Assembly (NCBI GenBank): GCA_022452145.1 | Contig: JAKURY010000018.1 | Location: forward strand, 1-41,498 | Reading direction: 5' to 3' | DNA: 41,498 nt | DNA from: Acidimicrobiales bacterium | GTDB lineage: Bacteria > Actinomycetota > Acidimicrobiia > Acidimicrobiales > MedAcidi-G1 | Part shown: positions 21,886 through 29,556 of the stretch, in pieces | How positions within the stretch are numbered: the stretch's first letter is position 1 | Layout: each line of letters opens with the position of its first letter | The notes under the pieces: generated by a model | What the model was told of the DNA's origin: nothing | The model's input: the letters and a program-made list of their open reading frames with translations, nothing else | Database searches by the model: none | Translations under genes and position numbers: made by a program

Positions 21886-22878
21886 CTAGTCCAGCCGGAT
21901 CTCCCCGTTGACCGGCAGGCAGGGCGAGGCGATGTCGACGGCGAGCAGGCCGGCGGTGGCCAGACCGGGCGCGGGATCGGTGGCGCCGATGGCCGACGCG
22001 AGGTGGGCGGCGGCACGGATGCCGACCGAGCCCTCCAGCAGGGACGTGATCACCACGTCCAGTCCGGCGCTGCGGACCAGGGCTGCCGCCCTGGCTGCCT
22101 CCGACGGCCCTCCGATGGCCGACGGCTTGAGGACCACCAGGTCGGCGGCCCCCATCTCCACGGCTCGCCTGACGTCCTCGACGGTTCGGGCCGACTCGTC
22201 TACGGCGATCGGTACCGGTGAGGCGAAGCGGACATCGGCCAGGTGCTCCAGCCCCGCGACCGGCTCCTCCACGAACTCGGGGTCGAATGCGGCCAGGCGG
22301 TCCAGGTGCCGGACCGCCTCGCCCGCCTCCCAGGCCCCGTTGGCGTCCAGCCTCAGCGTGATGTCCGGTCCGATCCGGGAGCGCACCGCCGACACCCGCT
22401 CGACATCGCCGTCGATCCCGTGGGTTCCGACCTTGACCTTGACCGTGGCGTGGCCCGCGGCCACCGCTGCGGCCACGGAGGCGGCGAGGTCCTCGACCGT
22501 GGCTCCGGTGACGAGTGCGGCGACGGACAGGCGGTCGGGGCTCGCCGGGGCGAGCAGGCGGTGGACGGTCGTTCCGGCGATCCGGGCCGCCAGGTCCAGC
22601 AGTGCGGAGTCCACGGCGGCCCTGGCGGTAACCGACGCCACGGGCCTGTCGTCGACGGCACCATCCTCGACCCAGCCACGGATGGCGGCCTCGGCCTCGT
22701 CCACGGTGTCCGGGGTGAAGCCGGCCAGGGGAGCCGCCTCGCCGACGCCCACGTAGCCGTCCTCGTCGACCAGGGTCAGCAGGACGGTCCAGCGGTCGGC
22801 GACGGAACCGTGGGCGGTGGTTATCGGGGAGTGGTAGCGCAGCAGCCGGCGTTCCACCCGGGCCTCGGCGATCCTCAC
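21886..22878 (-). CDS. menC: o-Succinylbenzoate synthase
   Basis: MenC dehydrates SHCHC to o-succinylbenzoate in menaquinone synthesis. The 330-residue enolase-superfamily protein shows the K-x-K pair Lys147/Lys149, metal ligands Asp178 (LRLDANG), Glu204 (FVEEP) and Asp227 (AVDES), and the second catalytic Lys251 (VVLKPSAIGG). It starts with GTG at 22878, 28 bp after the menH stop, as last gene of the menF-D-H-C operon. The operon context makes OSBS activity more likely than the related N-acylamino-acid racemase or dipeptide epimerase. Confidence 0.95.
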   Translation of the reverse strand: MRIAEARVERRLLRYHSPITTAHGSVADRWTVLLTLVDEDGYVGVGEAAPLAGFTPDTVDEAEAAIRGWVEDGAVDDRPVASVTARAAVDSALLDLAARIAGTTVHRLLAPASPDRLSVAALVTGATVEDLAASVAAAVAAGHATVKVKVGTHGIDGDVERVSAVRSRIGPDITLRLDANGAWEAGEAVRHLDRLAAFDPEFVEEPVAGLEHLADVRFASPVPIAVDESARTVEDVRRAVEMGAADLVVLKPSAIGGPSEAARAAALVRSAGLDVVITSLLEGSVGIRAAAHLASAIGATDPAPGLATAGLLAVDIASPCLPVNGEIRLD

Positions 22879-22906
22879 CGGGTCGACGCCCTACTCCGGG
22901 TGGCCC

Positions 22907-23737
22907 TCACCGGCCGGACCTCCGCTCCTCGTCCAGCTGGGCCAGGAACCCGAGGATCTCGGTCGAGGTCCGGTCCAGGTTCTCGAGGTGTGCAGCGTGT
23001 CCGGCTCCGGGCACGACGGAGATGGTCGAGAGCGGGAGGCCCGCCGCCATCCGCATGGCTATGGCCCGGAACCTGGGATCCTCGTCGCCGACCACTAGCA
23101 GGGTCGGGACGTCGATTCCAGCCAGGTCGTGCCAGTAGGACGGCTGGCTGCCCGCTCCGGCACCCCGCAGGCTGCCGGCCAGCCCCTCGGGGTCGTTTTC
23201 CAGGCGCTGGGCCCGGGCCGCGGCCAGGGCGTCCGTACCGAGGCGCACCTGGGAGGCGAACAGGGGGCTGGCCATCCAGCGGTCGATGAACCACTCGAGG
23301 CCCTGCTCCAGGAGGTCGTCGGCCAGGTCGTCGTCGGAATGGTGTCGGGCCGAACGCTCGGCAGCGTCGGACAGGCCGGCCGAGGCGCCTATCAGCGACA
23401 ACGACGCCACGTGGTGAGGGTGCCGGACGGCCAGGCCCAGGGCGATACGGCCACCCATGGAGTAGCCGACCACGTCCACCGGCACGTGGTCGAGTCGGTC
23501 CATCAGGCGGGCCACGGCGTCCACGGTGTGCTCGAAGCCGAAGAGGTGCGGATCCTCGGGGACACCGGTACGCCCGTGGCCGGGCAGGTCCACGGCGGCG
23601 ACACGACGTACCCCGGTGAGCCTGCGCCCCAGCGGCCACATCCCGGTCGTGCTACCGGTGAAGCCGTGGAGCAGCAGCAGTGGGGGGCCGTCGCCGTCCA
23701 TCTCGACGTGCAGCTCGGTGGTTCGGTGGGGAGACAC
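22907..23737 (-). CDS. menH: SHCHC synthase (MenH), alpha/beta hydrolase
   Basis: MenH eliminates pyruvate from SEPHCHC to give SHCHC. The 276-residue alpha/beta-hydrolase has LLLHGFTGST near residue 21, the elbow GYSMGGR with Ser93, an acid in VVGDEDPRF and His in GAGHAAHLE. GYSMGGR is characteristic of MenH. The start is GTG 23737, one base after the menD stop codon. The open frame extends upstream to 23827, but that part overlaps menD. Position between menD and menC secures the assignment. Confidence 0.92.
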   Translation of the reverse strand: MSPHRTTELHVEMDGDGPPLLLLHGFTGSTTGMWPLGRRLTGVRRVAAVDLPGHGRTGVPEDPHLFGFEHTVDAVARLMDRLDHVPVDVVGYSMGGRIALGLAVRHPHHVASLSLIGASAGLSDAAERSARHHSDDDLADDLLEQGLEWFIDRWMASPLFASQVRLGTDALAAARAQRLENDPEGLAGSLRGAGAGSQPSYWHDLAGIDVPTLLVVGDEDPRFRAIAMRMAAGLPLSTISVVPGAGHAAHLENLDRTSTEILGFLAQLDEERRSGR

Positions 23738-23738
23738 G

Positions 23739-25481
23739 TCAGCCCCCGTCGTCGGAGAGGGCACGGGAGAGGGCACGATCGACGGCCGCGGCCGCTTCCC
23801 GGTGGAGGCCCACGTTGGTCGTCGCATCGACCACGATGTGCACCAGGTGGAGGCCCGGGTTGCCGACCACCGATCCCAGGACGGACTCCAGGTCGGCCAG
23901 GCCGGTGGGTTCGTGGAGCCGGCCGCCGGCGAGGGCCGCCACGGGGCCGAGGTCCAGCCCGTGCGGGGTGTGGAACAGCCGGTGGTGGTCGACGTGGCCG
24001 TTCTCGGCGATGGGGAGGAAGGAGAAGATGCCGCCGCCGTCGTTGTCCACGAGCACGACGGTCAGGTCCAGCCCGAGGCGTCGGATGGCCAGGAGGCCGC
24101 CGAGGTCGTGGAGAAGGGCGAGGTCACCCGTGAACAGGACGGTCGGTTCCACGGATCCGGCGGCCACGCCCAGTGCGGTGGACGCCATCCCGTCGATTCC
24201 GTTGGCCCCGCGGTTGGCGAGGATCCGGAGGGGCCGTTCGTCAGTGGGGAGGAACGCGTCGAGGTCCCGGATCGGCATCGAGCTGGCCACCACGAGGTTG
24301 GCTCCGGCGGGCAGGGTCCGGTGCAGGGCGGCCACGACAGCCGGCTCGTCGAACGGGCCGTCGGTGGCGATGGCGGCCACGGTCGACATGGCCACCGAGT
24401 CGGCCCCCGTCCATGTTGACGTCCAGGGTCCGGTCTGCTGCACCTCGGGTAGGTGTTCCACGAGCAGGGCAGCCAGCCGGCCCGGTTCGGCGGCCACCCG
24501 GTCGGTGACACGATGGGCGGGGTCCGGGAACCGACCCAGGTGGTCGACGGCGACGAGGCGGTCGGTGCCCACCCGGTCCAGCCAGAGCCGGTATCCCTTG
24601 CTGGTGGGCATGGCGCCCATCTGGACCACCAGGTCCGGACGGTGGTCGTTGGCCCAGGTCGAGCGCAGCAGGTGGTCGCCGGAGGCCAGCACCGGGGCGT
24701 CGGCGGTCTGCGGCCCGCGGCGGAGGCCCGATGCCGGATCGGCGAGGACCGGCCAGCCGGTGCGACGGGACAGCTCGGCCACGGCGGCGACCCCCCGGTC
24801 GTCCGGATCCATCGGCCCGGCTACCAGCAGGCCCCGTTCGGTTCCGAGGAGGCCGGGAAGCGGTCCCGGTTCGACCGCTGCGTGGTCCGGCGGCATGGGT
24901 AGAAGGCCGACCGGTGGCGGGTCCTGGACCGGAGGCTCGAGCGGCTCCCGGAATCCGATGTTGACGTGTACCGGGCCTGGCGCCGGCCGGGTGGCACGGA
25001 CCACCGCCTGGTGGGCCAGCGAGGCGGCCTCGCCCGCCGGCCGGGTTCCGGCCACCGCCTCGGTCGTCGCCCAACGGGTGTGGGTGCCGTAGAGGTCCAC
25101 CTGGTCGATGGCCTGGGGGGCGCCGATGCCCTGCAGTTCCGGGGGGCGGTCGGTTGTCAGGACTAGGAGCGGCACGCCCGAGTGGAAGGCCTCGACCACG
25201 GCGGGCAGGTAGTTGGCCGCAGCGGTCCCGGAGGTGCACAACAGGGCTACCGGCCGCCTCGATGCCCGGGCCAGGCCGAGGGCGAAGAAGCCACCGGACC
25301 GCTCGTCGAGGTGCATGGACAGCTCGAGGCCTTCGGTACGGTCGGCCGCCACGGTCATGGGCGTGGACCGCGACCCCGGCGACACGGCCACGTGCCCGAT
25401 CCCGCAGGCCACCATCTGGGCGAGGAAGGCCCGGCACCAGGCCTGCATGGCCGCCGGGTCGGCGACGGGCAGCGCGCTCAC
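23739..25481 (-). CDS. menD: SEPHCHC synthase (MenD), thiamine-diphosphate enzyme
   Basis: MenD joins isochorismate and the succinic semialdehyde unit of 2-oxoglutarate, giving SEPHCHC. The 580-residue protein has the N-terminal domain with AVSPGSRSTPM near residue 33, RSGGFFALG and CTSGTAAANYLPAV. The C-terminal ThDP region contains ANRGANGIDG and the magnesium-binding GDLALLHDLGGLL...DNDGGGIFSFLP. These are full-length MenD features. The GTG at 25481 overlaps the menF stop as GTGA, which implies translational coupling. Confidence 0.97.
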   Translation of the reverse strand: MSALPVADPAAMQAWCRAFLAQMVACGIGHVAVSPGSRSTPMTVAADRTEGLELSMHLDERSGGFFALGLARASRRPVALLCTSGTAAANYLPAVVEAFHSGVPLLVLTTDRPPELQGIGAPQAIDQVDLYGTHTRWATTEAVAGTRPAGEAASLAHQAVVRATRPAPGPVHVNIGFREPLEPPVQDPPPVGLLPMPPDHAAVEPGPLPGLLGTERGLLVAGPMDPDDRGVAAVAELSRRTGWPVLADPASGLRRGPQTADAPVLASGDHLLRSTWANDHRPDLVVQMGAMPTSKGYRLWLDRVGTDRLVAVDHLGRFPDPAHRVTDRVAAEPGRLAALLVEHLPEVQQTGPWTSTWTGADSVAMSTVAAIATDGPFDEPAVVAALHRTLPAGANLVVASSMPIRDLDAFLPTDERPLRILANRGANGIDGMASTALGVAAGSVEPTVLFTGDLALLHDLGGLLAIRRLGLDLTVVLVDNDGGGIFSFLPIAENGHVDHHRLFHTPHGLDLGPVAALAGGRLHEPTGLADLESVLGSVVGNPGLHLVHIVVDATTNVGLHREAAAAVDRALSRALSDDGG

Positions 25482-26794
25482 CGGGGTTCCGAGGTGGCGA
25501 CTACGGGGCCCAGCAGCGCCCCGAGTTTCACGTCGGTCTCCAGCAGCTCACGGGACGGGTCGGAGCCACGGACGACGCCAGCCCCAGCGTAGAGGGTGGT
25601 GTCTACGCCGGTGACCAGGGCCGATCGCAGGGCCACCCTGAACTCGCCGTCACCGGAGGAGTCCAGCCAGCCGACCGGACTCGCGAACCAGCCTCGGTCC
25701 ATGCCCTCGTGGGTGGACCGGAGTTCGGCGGATCGGCCACCGGGGTGGCCGGCGACGGCCGGCGTCGGGTGCAGGGCGCCCACCACGTCGAACAGGCCGA
25801 TCCCGGCTGGAAGCTCGGCGTCGATCGGGGTGTGGAGGTGCTGTATGCCGTGGAGGCGCAGCAGGGTCGGCTCGGAGGGATGGCGATCGACCACGCCGAG
25901 CAGTTCGAGCGCCCGGTCTACGGCGTCTACGACCACGGCGTGCTCGGAGCGTTCCTTGGGGCTGGTCAGGAGGCCCTGTCCGAGGGCGGCGTCGATGGCG
26001 GGATCGGCGTGCCGGGGGGCCGACCCGGCCAGTGCCGCGGTGTGCAGCCAATCGCCGTGGACGGCCGCGAGGCGTTCCGGTGTGGCGGCCACGAACGAGG
26101 CCTGGCCGATCGACACGCCGATGGTGGCACATGCCGGGTAGGTGCTCCGAAGCGTTGACAGGAGGCGGACCACGTCCGGGCGACGGTCGACGCGGATCGA
26201 TCGGCACGGCACCGCCTTGACCAACTCGCCGGCCTCGATCGCCGCCAGCGCCAGGACGACGAGCTTCCGGTAGTGGGAGCGGGAGGCCTCGTCGGCCCAG
26301 TCGGCCGGGTCCACCTCGACGGGTACCGCCGGACCGGGCGCTGCCACCACGGGAGTGGGCCGGTCGTGGTCGTCGATGCGCGTCACCCAGGTGCGGTCGC
26401 CACGCCTCAGGACCTGGACGGCGGGAAGGGACAGGCGGCCGTCGCCGAACTGCTCCCAGGGTCCGGCCTGTGCCGAGTCGTCGAAGGCGAAGCCGGCGGC
26501 CAGTCGGGGGAGTGGTGAGTCGGACGGTCCGGCGACCCGGAGCCCGTCCAGGAGCCGGCCGGCCGCCCGTGCCGCCTCGTCGAAGCGGTGCGGGCCGGAG
26601 GTCATGACGGTGGCGGCGCTTCCCAGGCCGACCCATGCGACGTCGTCCTCCGGTACCTCCCAGTACCACCGCTCGTCGGTGAGTGGTGCCGTGGCCAGCC
26701 ATGCCAGCGGGTCGGACGCCGGGCCGGTGCGGACTTCGGTGACGGTCGCCGACATCAGGTCGGTCGACTCGGGACGTGCCTCGCTCAGGGCCAT
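25478..26794 (-). CDS. menF: Isochorismate synthase
   Basis: The 438-residue protein carries the chorismate-binding domain. Motifs are SPKERSEHAVVVD, LHPTPAVAGHP, DRGWFASPVGWLD with the following GDGEFRVALRS, and LYAGAGVVRGSDPSRELLET. It converts chorismate to isochorismate, the first step of menaquinone synthesis. EntC-type isochorismate synthase of a siderophore pathway is excluded by the overlapping menD. The frame is open far upstream, but ATG 26794 is the natural start; it overlaps the end of the MerR-type gene by 10 bp. Magnesium is the expected cofactor. Confidence 0.95.
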   Translation of the reverse strand: MALSEARPESTDLMSATVTEVRTGPASDPLAWLATAPLTDERWYWEVPEDDVAWVGLGSAATVMTSGPHRFDEAARAAGRLLDGLRVAGPSDSPLPRLAAGFAFDDSAQAGPWEQFGDGRLSLPAVQVLRRGDRTWVTRIDDHDRPTPVVAAPGPAVPVEVDPADWADEASRSHYRKLVVLALAAIEAGELVKAVPCRSIRVDRRPDVVRLLSTLRSTYPACATIGVSIGQASFVAATPERLAAVHGDWLHTAALAGSAPRHADPAIDAALGQGLLTSPKERSEHAVVVDAVDRALELLGVVDRHPSEPTLLRLHGIQHLHTPIDAELPAGIGLFDVVGALHPTPAVAGHPGGRSAELRSTHEGMDRGWFASPVGWLDSSGDGEFRVALRSALVTGVDTTLYAGAGVVRGSDPSRELLETDVKLGALLGPVVATSEPR

Positions 26795-27546
26795 CGGCAG
26801 ATCACCTCGAGGCGGTCGGCGTGGGCGGCAGCCAGGGCGTCTGCCAGCGAGCGTCGGTCGCCGTCGGTCACCCGGCCCAGTGCCCGGTTGACCAGCGTCC
26901 GGTTGAAGTGCTGTGCGACGAGGCGGGTCACGGCGGGGAGCAGGGATCGGACCACCTCGACCAGGGCATCGTCGGAGCCGTCGGTGCCGGCCTTCACGTG
27001 GTCCTCGAACAGGGCGATGGCCCGGTCCACCACCTGGTCCACGTTGGCGCTGTGGTCGGCGGCCAGGGCCACCAACTCGTCGAGGGGTACGCCCGCCGCG
27101 CTGATGGCCAGGCCGGCCCGAACCATGGACACCGCCCCCTCGTCGAACAGCGGCGCGCCGTCCTGGCTGACCGGCTCCAGGATCCCGTTGTCGCAGAGGA
27201 GGGAGACGAGGCTCTCGGGCACGCCGGCCAGGTCGGCCACCTCGTACCGGGTGAGGCTGCGGGCCCGGGCCGCCTCGGCCAGGCGGCCCAGGTCGTCGCT
27301 CCGCGACGTGGCGTCCAGGGTGGCGATCTGGGCCAGGGAGAAGCCCTCGTCGGCCAGCTGCCGTATCTCGATCAGACGGTCCAGGTGGGCGGTGGAGTAG
27401 AGGGCCCGACGCCCGTGCCGTACCGGGGGGTCCAGGAGGCCGAGGCGTTGGTAGTAGCGGATGGTGTCGACGCCCAGTCCGCTGGTCGCCGCCACCCGGT
27501 CGACGGTGAGCAGGTCCCCCTCGGAGGAGTCGAACGCAACGGCCAC
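26785..27546 (-). CDS. Regulator with two tandem MerR-type DNA-binding domains, first gene of the men operon
   Basis: The first MerR-type winged helix is at about residues 13-78 (LTVDRVAATSGLGVDTIRYY, then LGLLDP and GRRALYSTAHLDRL). A second, more divergent copy lies at about 98-163 (LTRYEVADLAGVPESLVSLL, DNGILEPV, LFDEGAVSMV). The remaining 90 residues are helical and lack the cysteine pairs of metal sensors. Two DNA-binding domains in one chain suggest that a monomer or a larger dimer recognises an extended site. GTG 27546 is chosen because an excellent promoter ends 6 nt upstream; the frame is open further to 27720. It overlaps menF by 10 bp, so it probably regulates its own operon. Confidence 0.75.
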   Translation of the reverse strand: MAVAFDSSEGDLLTVDRVAATSGLGVDTIRYYQRLGLLDPPVRHGRRALYSTAHLDRLIEIRQLADEGFSLAQIATLDATSRSDDLGRLAEAARARSLTRYEVADLAGVPESLVSLLCDNGILEPVSQDGAPLFDEGAVSMVRAGLAISAAGVPLDELVALAADHSANVDQVVDRAIALFEDHVKAGTDGSDDALVEVVRSLLPAVTRLVAQHFNRTLVNRALGRVTDGDRRSLADALAAAHADRLEVICRWP

Positions 27547-27552
27547 CGGCTG

Positions 27553-27581
27553 ATTGTACGAGCAATAACTCTCAGTGTCCA
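27553..27581 (-). promoter_or_regulatory. Promoter of the merR-menFDHC operon, leaderless
   Basis: On the minus strand TGGACA (27581-27576) and TACAAT (27558-27553) are separated by exactly 17 nt and each differs by one base from consensus. Six nt after the -10 box is the GTG at 27546, so the mRNA would begin at the start codon. An inverted repeat AGTGT-CC-ACACT (27574-27585) overlaps the -35 box and could be an operator. Confidence 0.7.
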
Positions 27582-27709: not shown

Positions 27710-28606
27710 ATGACCGGCAACCAGCCCGTTGACTACATCGCCCTCACCCGGGCGCAGTACGACGACCTCGGCTACCCGGCGTACCAGTGGGCCGAGCGAC
27801 CCGACACGCCTCCCTGGACCCCACTGGCCGCGCCGCTGGCCGACTCCACGGTGGCCCTCATCGGCTCCGGCGGTGCCTACCGGAGCGGCCAGGTGGCGTT
27901 CCACTGGAAGGACGACACGGGCATCCGCCACATACCGACCTCGGAGCCGGCCACCGACATCCGGGTCACCCACTTCGCCTACGACCTGGAACCGGCCAGG
28001 GAGGATCCCAACATCGTCTTCCCGGTGGACCGCCTGCGCGAGCTCGTCGACGAGGGCGTCATCGGCGGGCTGGCTCCCACGGCCCTCGGCTGCATGGGGG
28101 GCATCTACTCGGTTCGGCGGGCCGTCGAGGAGCTGGCGCCCGTCATCGTCGACGAGGTACTGGCCATGCGCGATGCCGGCCAGGCCGACATGGTGCTCCT
28201 GGTGCCCGTCTGACCGGTATGCCACCAGACCGTGGGTCTGGTAGCCAGGGCGTTGGAGGCGGCCGGAGTGCCGACGATCTGCCTGACCGCAGCCCACAGC
28301 ATCACGGCCTCGGTGAACCCGCCCCGTGCCGCCTTCGTGGACCTGCCGCTGGGCAACACCGCCGGCCGGCCCAACGACCCGGAGTTCCAGCGCGACCTCC
28401 TGAGACGTGCGTTCGCGGCAGCCGAGTCGATGGACGCGCCGGGCACCATCGCCGACCTGGGCGTCACCTGGGACGCCGACGGGTCGTGGAAGCGTTTCGC
28501 CACGTCCACCGGCCTGGGCAGCGGCGACGGCGACGACGACCGGCGCCAGCGCCTCGACACCCCGCAGTACCAGTACGAGTCGGACCGGCTGGCGGCAGGG
28601 GGCTGA
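27710..28606 (+). CDS. Predicted selenoprotein, glycine/sarcosine/betaine/D-proline reductase selenoprotein B family (GrdB/PrdB-like)
   Basis: Codons 1-167 and 169-298 are one continuous frame broken only by TGA at 28211-28213. Before the TGA are the family motifs FPVDRLRELVDEGVIGGLAP and CMGGIY, then ADMVLLVPV. After it comes P-V-C-H-Q-T-V-G, then PPRAAFVDLPLGNTAGRP, the normal C-terminal part of the family. The TGA occupies the redox position of a U-x-x-C motif, and a hairpin follows. I conclude Sec168, translated through by SelB. Known members cleave C-N bonds reductively with a selenol. No PrdA, GrdA or GrdE partner and no Sec machinery is in the window, so the reaction is unknown. The next gene's Shine-Dalgarno overlaps this stop. 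Confidence 0.85.
28224..28242 (+). promoter_or_regulatory. Putative bacterial SECIS hairpin
   Basis: ACCAGACC-GTG-GGTCTGGT is a perfect 8-bp stem with a GTG loop, beginning 10 nt after the in-frame TGA. After one C-A mismatch the stem continues with C28222-G28244 and G28221-C28245. The apical loop lies 19-21 nt after the TGA, the same distance as in the E. coli fdhF SECIS as I recall it, and carries a G at its start, as bacterial SECIS loops do. Confidence 0.7.
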
Positions 28607-28614
28607 GGAGGACC

Positions 28615-29556
28615 GTGCCGGTCGCCGAGGACCTGGTCGCCCTCATGGCGCTGGCCGACGCCGCCCGCCTGCCCATGGACGAGGTGACGCCCGAGTCCAT
28701 GCGCGCTGGCTACTCGGCCCTGGCCGAACCGGGCGGTGTGGACATGGCAGAGCTCGTGGACCGGGTCATCCCGGGACCCGACGGCACCGACCTGCCGCTC
28801 CGGACCTACAGGCCCTCTGGTGTTGGGGAGCGTCCGCCGGTGGTCGTATACCTGCACGGTGGCGGGTGGACGATCGGCAGCGTCGACACCCATGACGAGC
28901 CCTGTCGGGCCCTGGCAGCCGGAACGGGCGCTGTCGTCGTTTCGGTCGACTACAGGCTTGCTCCAGAGCACCCGTTCCCGGCCGCCGTCCACGATGCCTA
29001 TGCCGCCGTCTGCTTCGTCGCCGACAACGCCGATGACCTCGGCGTCGACGCCGACCGCCTGGTGGTGGCCGGCGACAGCGCCGGAGGGAACCTCTCGGCC
29101 GCCATCTCGCTGATGGCCCGGGACCGCTCGGGGCCGACCATCGCCCTTCAGGTCCTCGTCTATCCGGCCGTCGACTTCGACTACGACTCGGGTCGCTGGC
29201 CGTCGCTGCAGGAGAACGCCACCGGGTACTTCCTGCACCTGGAGACGATGCGGTGGTTCGCCGACTGCTACGGCGGCGCCGAGCGTCTGGCGGGTGATCC
29301 GTTGGCCGCGCCGATCCGGGCCGCCGACCACGCGGGCCTTCCCCCGGCCCACGTCTTCGTGGCCGGCTTCGATCCGCTGCGGGACGAGGGGCTGGCCTAC
29401 GCCGAGGTGCTGCGCGACGCCGGGGTACCCGTCACCGTGTGCTGCCACGACGGCCAGGTCCACGGCTACTGGCACTTCGCACCAACCGTGGCGTCCAGCG
29501 GGGCTGCGCGGGGCCTCGACATGGAGGCGATCGCCGCCGCCATCGCTGGCCTCTAG
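28615..29556 (+). CDS. Alpha/beta hydrolase of the hormone-sensitive-lipase family
   Basis: The 313-residue protein has the family's oxyanion motif HGGGW at 81-85, YRLAPEHPFPAA near 113, the nucleophile elbow GDSAGG with Ser155, the acid in GFDPLRDEG and His in VHGYWHF. These carboxylesterases cleave short acyl esters and lactones. GTG 28615 has GAGGAGG 3 nt upstream, part of it inside the stop region of the selenoprotein gene, so both are on one mRNA. This makes it a candidate for supplying or processing the selenoprotein's substrate; no closer inference is possible. Confidence 0.85.
   Translation: MPVAEDLVALMALADAARLPMDEVTPESMRAGYSALAEPGGVDMAELVDRVIPGPDGTDLPLRTYRPSGVGERPPVVVYLHGGGWTIGSVDTHDEPCRALAAGTGAVVVSVDYRLAPEHPFPAAVHDAYAAVCFVADNADDLGVDADRLVVAGDSAGGNLSAAISLMARDRSGPTIALQVLVYPAVDFDYDSGRWPSLQENATGYFLHLETMRWFADCYGGAERLAGDPLAAPIRAADHAGLPPAHVFVAGFDPLRDEGLAYAEVLRDAGVPVTVCCHDGQVHGYWHFAPTVASSGAARGLDMEAIAAAIAGL

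Follow-up and report, generated by a model that had tools for sequence, protein, structure and literature searches.

A PrdB-like gene with an internal TGA in an Acidimicrobiales genome: a probable selenoprotein without a reductase partner

Gene and predicted readthrough product

The window analysed here is a stretch of 41,498 nucleotides from an Acidimicrobiales bacterium (GenBank assembly GCA_022452145.1, contig JAKURY010000018.1), whose genome of 2.08 Mb is held in 46 contigs and is 95% complete. The window contains two open reading frames (27710-28213 and 28232-28606) that lie in one frame and are joined by a single in-frame TGA. Readthrough of this codon would result in a product of 298 residues, in which U168 is followed by P-V-C-H to form a U-x-x-C motif. 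Both the arrangement of the two frames around a lone TGA and the motif are as described in the original prediction, which had proposed a hidden GrdB/PrdB-like selenoprotein gene. The two gene halves have GC3 values of 0.93 and 0.92. The second frame is listed as starting with the GTG at 28232, but this triplet forms the apical loop of a SECIS-type hairpin and is therefore probably not a start codon. When the TGA is taken as a stop, the gene is broken in two and remains hidden.

Table 1. Coordinates of the features at the locus (positions in the window)
Feature	Position	Strand	Remarks
prdB-like selenoprotein gene	27710..28606	+	298 residues, internal TGA predicted to be read as Sec
TGA codon	28211..28213	+	Sec168, U-P-V-C-H-Q motif
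bSECIS-type hairpin	28224..28242	+	stem 28224-28231 with 28235-28242, loop GTG 28232-28234; based on covariation and an offset control
alpha/beta hydrolase (Abhydrolase_3)	28615..29556	+	8 bases downstream of the gene

Codon conservation, hairpin and selenocysteine machinery

The codon at the Sec position was read at 99 loci, consisting of the window, 18 fetched stretches and 80 named loci, with a few records included twice. To obtain the named loci, genome contigs were searched with peptide patterns from upstream of the codon, and the best 80 of the 134 relatives so detected were kept. They span Actinomycetota, Proteobacteria, Acidobacteriota and others, in records from many different projects, and the closest among them are MAGs of Acidimicrobiales or Acidimicrobiia, many of which appear to be marine from their isolate names. 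The codon is TGA at 98 of the 99 loci and TAG at the remaining one (Blastococcus), and conserved residues run on past it on either side. Chance or a sequencing error at this position is rejected by these counts. A frameshift or a pseudogene at 28211 was likewise considered and ruled out, as the codon is conserved across many records.

TGA is present in 126 of the 129 rows of the raw BLAST table, the other three being two alignment gaps and the TAG. Among 61 relatives (own genome included), 43 encode a homologue, a count that includes one genome with a GrdB-type protein only (G045; L065) and two with only a more distant paralogue (G037 and G042). Every match in these relatives that spans residue 168 holds one in-frame TGA, and three matches lacking a TGA do not reach across this residue. 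A scan of 296 genomes of the phylum found homologues in 51, with at least one TGA anywhere in 59 of the 62 match rows (three of them also with TAG or TAA) and none in three. These last three, the distant homologues L189, L190 and L191, have Cys exactly at the Sec residue. The choice between U and C at residue 168, which the original prediction had singled out as informative, is thus what the homologues display.

An 8-bp stem starts ten bases after the TGA. Across 61 sequences, 88.1% of the stem cells are paired and double-sided changes occur at six of the eight pairs. Cells with double changes number 83, versus 27.4 ± 4.2 after shuffling (0 of 500 shuffles as high), and the covariation score is 0.414, versus at most 0.140 when the partner strand is slid. 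In an offset control on the 99 loci, a mean of 7.32 of the 8 pairs form at the true place, whereas placing the pattern at 49 other codon offsets yields means of 1.38-5.15. Of 89 distinct sequences, 86 open the loop with G, and in 29 of the 61 the pair that closes the loop does not form. Folded as a single sequence, the hairpin of the window is no better than its shuffles (z -0.95; 35 of 200 as good), so the case for a SECIS depends on covariation. By this comparative evidence, a role of the hairpin as the SECIS is supported.

The host genome encodes the proteins and the tRNA that such decoding would call for. A tRNA-Sec match of 67.5 bits has the anticodon TCA, and a second match above the cut-off is a tRNA-Ser on closer typing. 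Genes for selA (389.6 bits) and selB (276.4 bits) adjoin each other on contig C9, and selD (365.2 bits) is found on contig C17, completing the set for which the original prediction had proposed to search. SelA scores above the cut-off in 41 of the 43 relatives with a homologue versus 7 of the 18 without one (Fisher p 4.5e-6), an association inflated by shared ancestry, as 37 of the 43 belong to one family. The two homologue-bearing relatives without SelA above the cut-off have genomes that are 84-85% complete. A single in-frame TGA also lies within the host selD match (L156), as expected of a SelD that itself contains Sec.

Among distant hosts, the Sec machinery was looked at in Blastococcus, for its tRNA. 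In Blastococcus tunisiensis DSM 46838, the Sec codon of the homologue is TAG (L117:8475-8477), and the best tRNA-Sec match (L147:1501-1596; 69.1 bits) has the anticodon CTA and is labelled tRNA-Pyl by ARAGORN. Codon and anticodon have thus changed to match, a natural experiment that independently supports reading the codon as Sec. UAG-reading tRNA-Sec (anticodon CUA) is documented in Geodermatophilaceae (PMC5330540; Mukai et al. 2016 as cited there), and the Blastococcus pairing resembles these cases. The UAG selenoproteins named in the accessible portion of that paper are formate dehydrogenase, a UGSC-motif protein and AhpC (AhpC in Blastococcus saxobsidens), whereas a PrdB-like one is not among them. 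Since the strain carries a DSM number, its TAG copy offers a possible test organism.

A mechanical listing of open reading frames does show two frames at the locus, as expected if the TGA were a real stop and the locus either a truncated pseudogene or the source of two distinct proteins. We consider this hardly credible, given the conserved residues on both sides, the TGA or TAG at all 99 loci from several phyla, the Cys replacements and the covarying hairpin. From sequence comparison, the retained codon, the Cys forms, the hairpin and the Sec machinery uphold the selenoprotein claim of the original prediction.

Family placement, partner subunits and neighbours

The best NCBIfam match is PrdB of D-proline reductase (TIGR04483; 145.1 bits, E 2.2e-42), with which the protein shares homology over residues 34-250 and a Sec in UxxC. 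However, it does not reach the equivalog cut-off of 300 and is longer than the 238-position profile. Its relation to selenoprotein B of glycine, betaine and sarcosine reductases (PF07355, TIGR01918) is similar: a region is homologous and the Sec is in register with GrdB-type proteins by profile comparison (97.1% probability), but the score on TIGR01918 (glycine-type) is 36 bits, far below the cut-off of 65.45, and only the later part of a 431-position profile is matched. The GrdB superfamily model PF07355 passes its cut-off of 22 with 28.7 bits, in a match on residues 81-138 only. Together with the register of the Sec, this bears out the proposed membership of the GrdB/PrdB superfamily.

Classical reductases of this kind act with a GrdE/PrdA-type subunit. 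The corresponding family PF09338, which we take to cover PrdA, has no match anywhere in the 95% complete own genome, in line with the original prediction of no PrdA partner nearby. By the same search, PF09338 is found in 4 of the 61 relatives (two of the same genus) and in none of 14 named controls. It is unmatched in 22 of 25 distant hosts and present in three, with host completeness not given. A search for GrdA (PF04723) gave no match in the own genome, nor did it give one in any control genome. In two congeneric relatives, G010 and G011, a gene for a GrdB-type protein with the motif U-G-T-G-T-R adjoins a PF09338 gene (L192 and L193). The one scanned of this pair, L193, reaches 171.1 bits on TIGR01918, well over the cut-off. 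The genus therefore also has the classical type, encoded separately from the present one.

The own genome, in which respiration was looked at, encodes a haem-copper oxidase (COX1), in agreement with the aerobic-style host envisaged in the original prediction. This oxidase and the lack of a PrdA-type partner further set the gene apart from D-proline reductase. One distant host (L128) is recorded as Desulfobacteraceae, presumably an anaerobic group, so the hosts of the gene family are not necessarily all aerobes.

The gene might still encode a true subunit of D-proline (or glycine, betaine or sarcosine) reductase, whose partner escaped the search, is encoded outside the assembled contigs or has given way to a divergent protein. 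PrdB is the best NCBIfam match, a genome of 46 contigs at 95% completeness may lack a piece, the GrdA search is equally silent in the control genomes, and published marine homologues carry the name PrdB in the accessible text of two surveys (PMC1088965, PMC2398784). Set against this are the score of less than half the PrdB cut-off, the rarity of PF09338 (present in 4 of the 61 relatives, although 43 encode a homologue, and in 3 of the 25 distant hosts), the host's haem-copper oxidase, and the same-genus GrdB-type genes, which unlike this gene adjoin PF09338 and, where scanned, exceed the TIGR01918 cut-off. We therefore regard a reductase subunit as improbable. Because the pyruvoyl-type partner subunit (PrdA/GrdE) is not found, reduction of D-proline or glycine by the protein itself is improbable, as far as gene content can tell.

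Neighbouring genes were compared by clustering at the 80 named loci and the window. Upstream on the other strand (21886-27565) lie menaquinone-type genes (chorismate-binding, TPP enzyme, alpha/beta hydrolase and enolase-like), a block whose adjacency to the gene is preserved within the close clade. The downstream Abhydrolase_3 gene is kept at 32 of these loci (best 80 of 134 relatives plus the window), mainly in the close clade and in three distant ones, and its adjacency is probably synteny only. A conserved operon partner was accordingly rejected, as conserved neighbours occur mainly inside the close clade. When 61 ORFs next to the gene at 32 distant loci were scanned against Pfam, no family exceeded 4 of the 61 (short-chain dehydrogenase, enoyl-CoA hydratase); these ORFs were picked mechanically, some being spurious, and 11 of the 43 distant loci had been dropped by eye as near-duplicates. 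Neither the clustering nor the scan revealed a neighbour conserved across phyla that would name a substrate.

Many relatives encode a second, longer PrdB-like selenoprotein paralogue with the motif U-P-L-C-T-R-T-V (L054-L059, L062-L064 and L066); the own genome gave no match to it. Rows of this paralogue are among those with the covarying hairpin.

Possible activity and relation to marine PrdB

The AlphaFold2 model (pLDDT 94.2) is a confident alpha/beta structure in which residue 168 follows a strand (161-166) and precedes a helix (169-184). A PDB sequence search with the protein or its profile gave no match at E up to 1, and Foldseek returned nothing at E <= 0.001. The best matches of VIA-align 2 (Z 7.1, LacI type; Z 7.0, short-chain dehydrogenase) indicate that the modelled fold is Rossmann-like and no more, and no GrdB or PrdB structure is among the fold matches listed. 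Within the best 80 of 134 relatives, a C-terminal CxxC tail is present at 40 of the 43 distant loci (L103-L146, not L109) and at none of the 37 close-clade loci, one of which (L100) is cut by a contig end.

The protein very probably is a functional, partner-free selenoprotein of the GrdB/PrdB superfamily, in which TGA is read as Sec and which is probably neither a D-proline nor a glycine reductase; this assessment draws on sequence. The internal TGA would be decoded by the host's tRNA-Sec (TCA), SelA, SelB and SelD, with the downstream hairpin as the SECIS. The selenolate of Sec168 may then attack the substrate, after which Cys171 would resolve the product by forming an Se-S bond and thioredoxin or a small thiol would restore the selenol. 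The CxxC tail, where present (in most distant homologues), may be a built-in relay. The best reading is thus a partner-free selenol/thiol oxidoreductase that has been misnamed D-proline reductase.

Such chemistry could also belong to a general antioxidant or repair protein that reduces peroxides, disulfides or methionine sulfoxide, rather than to a C-N bond reductase. The position of UxxC directly ahead of a helix in the model, the haem-copper oxidase of the host and the CxxC tail of the 40 distant homologues (again within the best 80 of 134), suited to a thiol relay, all fit this idea. The protein nevertheless aligns with the GrdB superfamily with its Sec in register, and it has neither a sequence match in the PDB nor a clear fold match, be it to thioredoxin-fold enzymes or to others. 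On balance, an antioxidant or repair role seems rather unlikely, if clearly less so than a reductase subunit.

Selenoproteins of this kind have been reported before. In the Sargasso Sea survey of 2005, PrdB with UxxC ranked third among selenoproteins, with 42 genes (PMC1088965), and the GOS survey of 2008 lists 235 Sec versus 110 Cys sequences of PrdB, assigned to pfam07355 in a table (PMC2398784). In reviews of 2022 and 2026, PrdB is entered as D-proline reductase (PMC9312934, PMC13188914). As far as the accessible text of the two surveys goes, the marine 'proline reductase PrdB' shares with our gene the UxxC motif, the PrdB name, the pfam07355 assignment and an excess of Sec over Cys forms, but neither its host nor a partner is stated there. 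From the survey descriptions, and independently of survey sequences, the gene seems to belong to this marine family. The selenoprotein would thus be known in kind, and the part of the original prediction that presented it as undescribed does not hold. The reaction itself is plausibly undescribed. A literature search, with most subscription journals outside its reach, found no description of the gene's host or of its lack of a partner.

Whether the marine 'PrdB' as a whole is a partner-free selenol oxidoreductase with an undescribed reaction, occurring in aerobes too and equipped with a CxxC relay in most lineages though not in the close Acidimicrobiales clade, is in our estimate evenly balanced. 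If the partner-free reading is true, a family that ranks among the most abundant selenoproteins reported in the ocean bears the wrong functional name. Acidimicrobiales, other Actinomycetota, Proteobacteria, Acidobacteriota and others (as recorded) would then use selenium for a reaction that has yet to be described.

A U-x-x-U form occurs in the homologues of two genomes from one actinobacterial family, where a second in-frame TGA lies at the putative resolving Cys and results in U-P-I-U (L161:1918 and L163:1918, the latter being the same gene as L195:1317). A UxxU motif is documented for another family, Prx-like 2, in the accessible text of the 2008 survey (PMC2398784).
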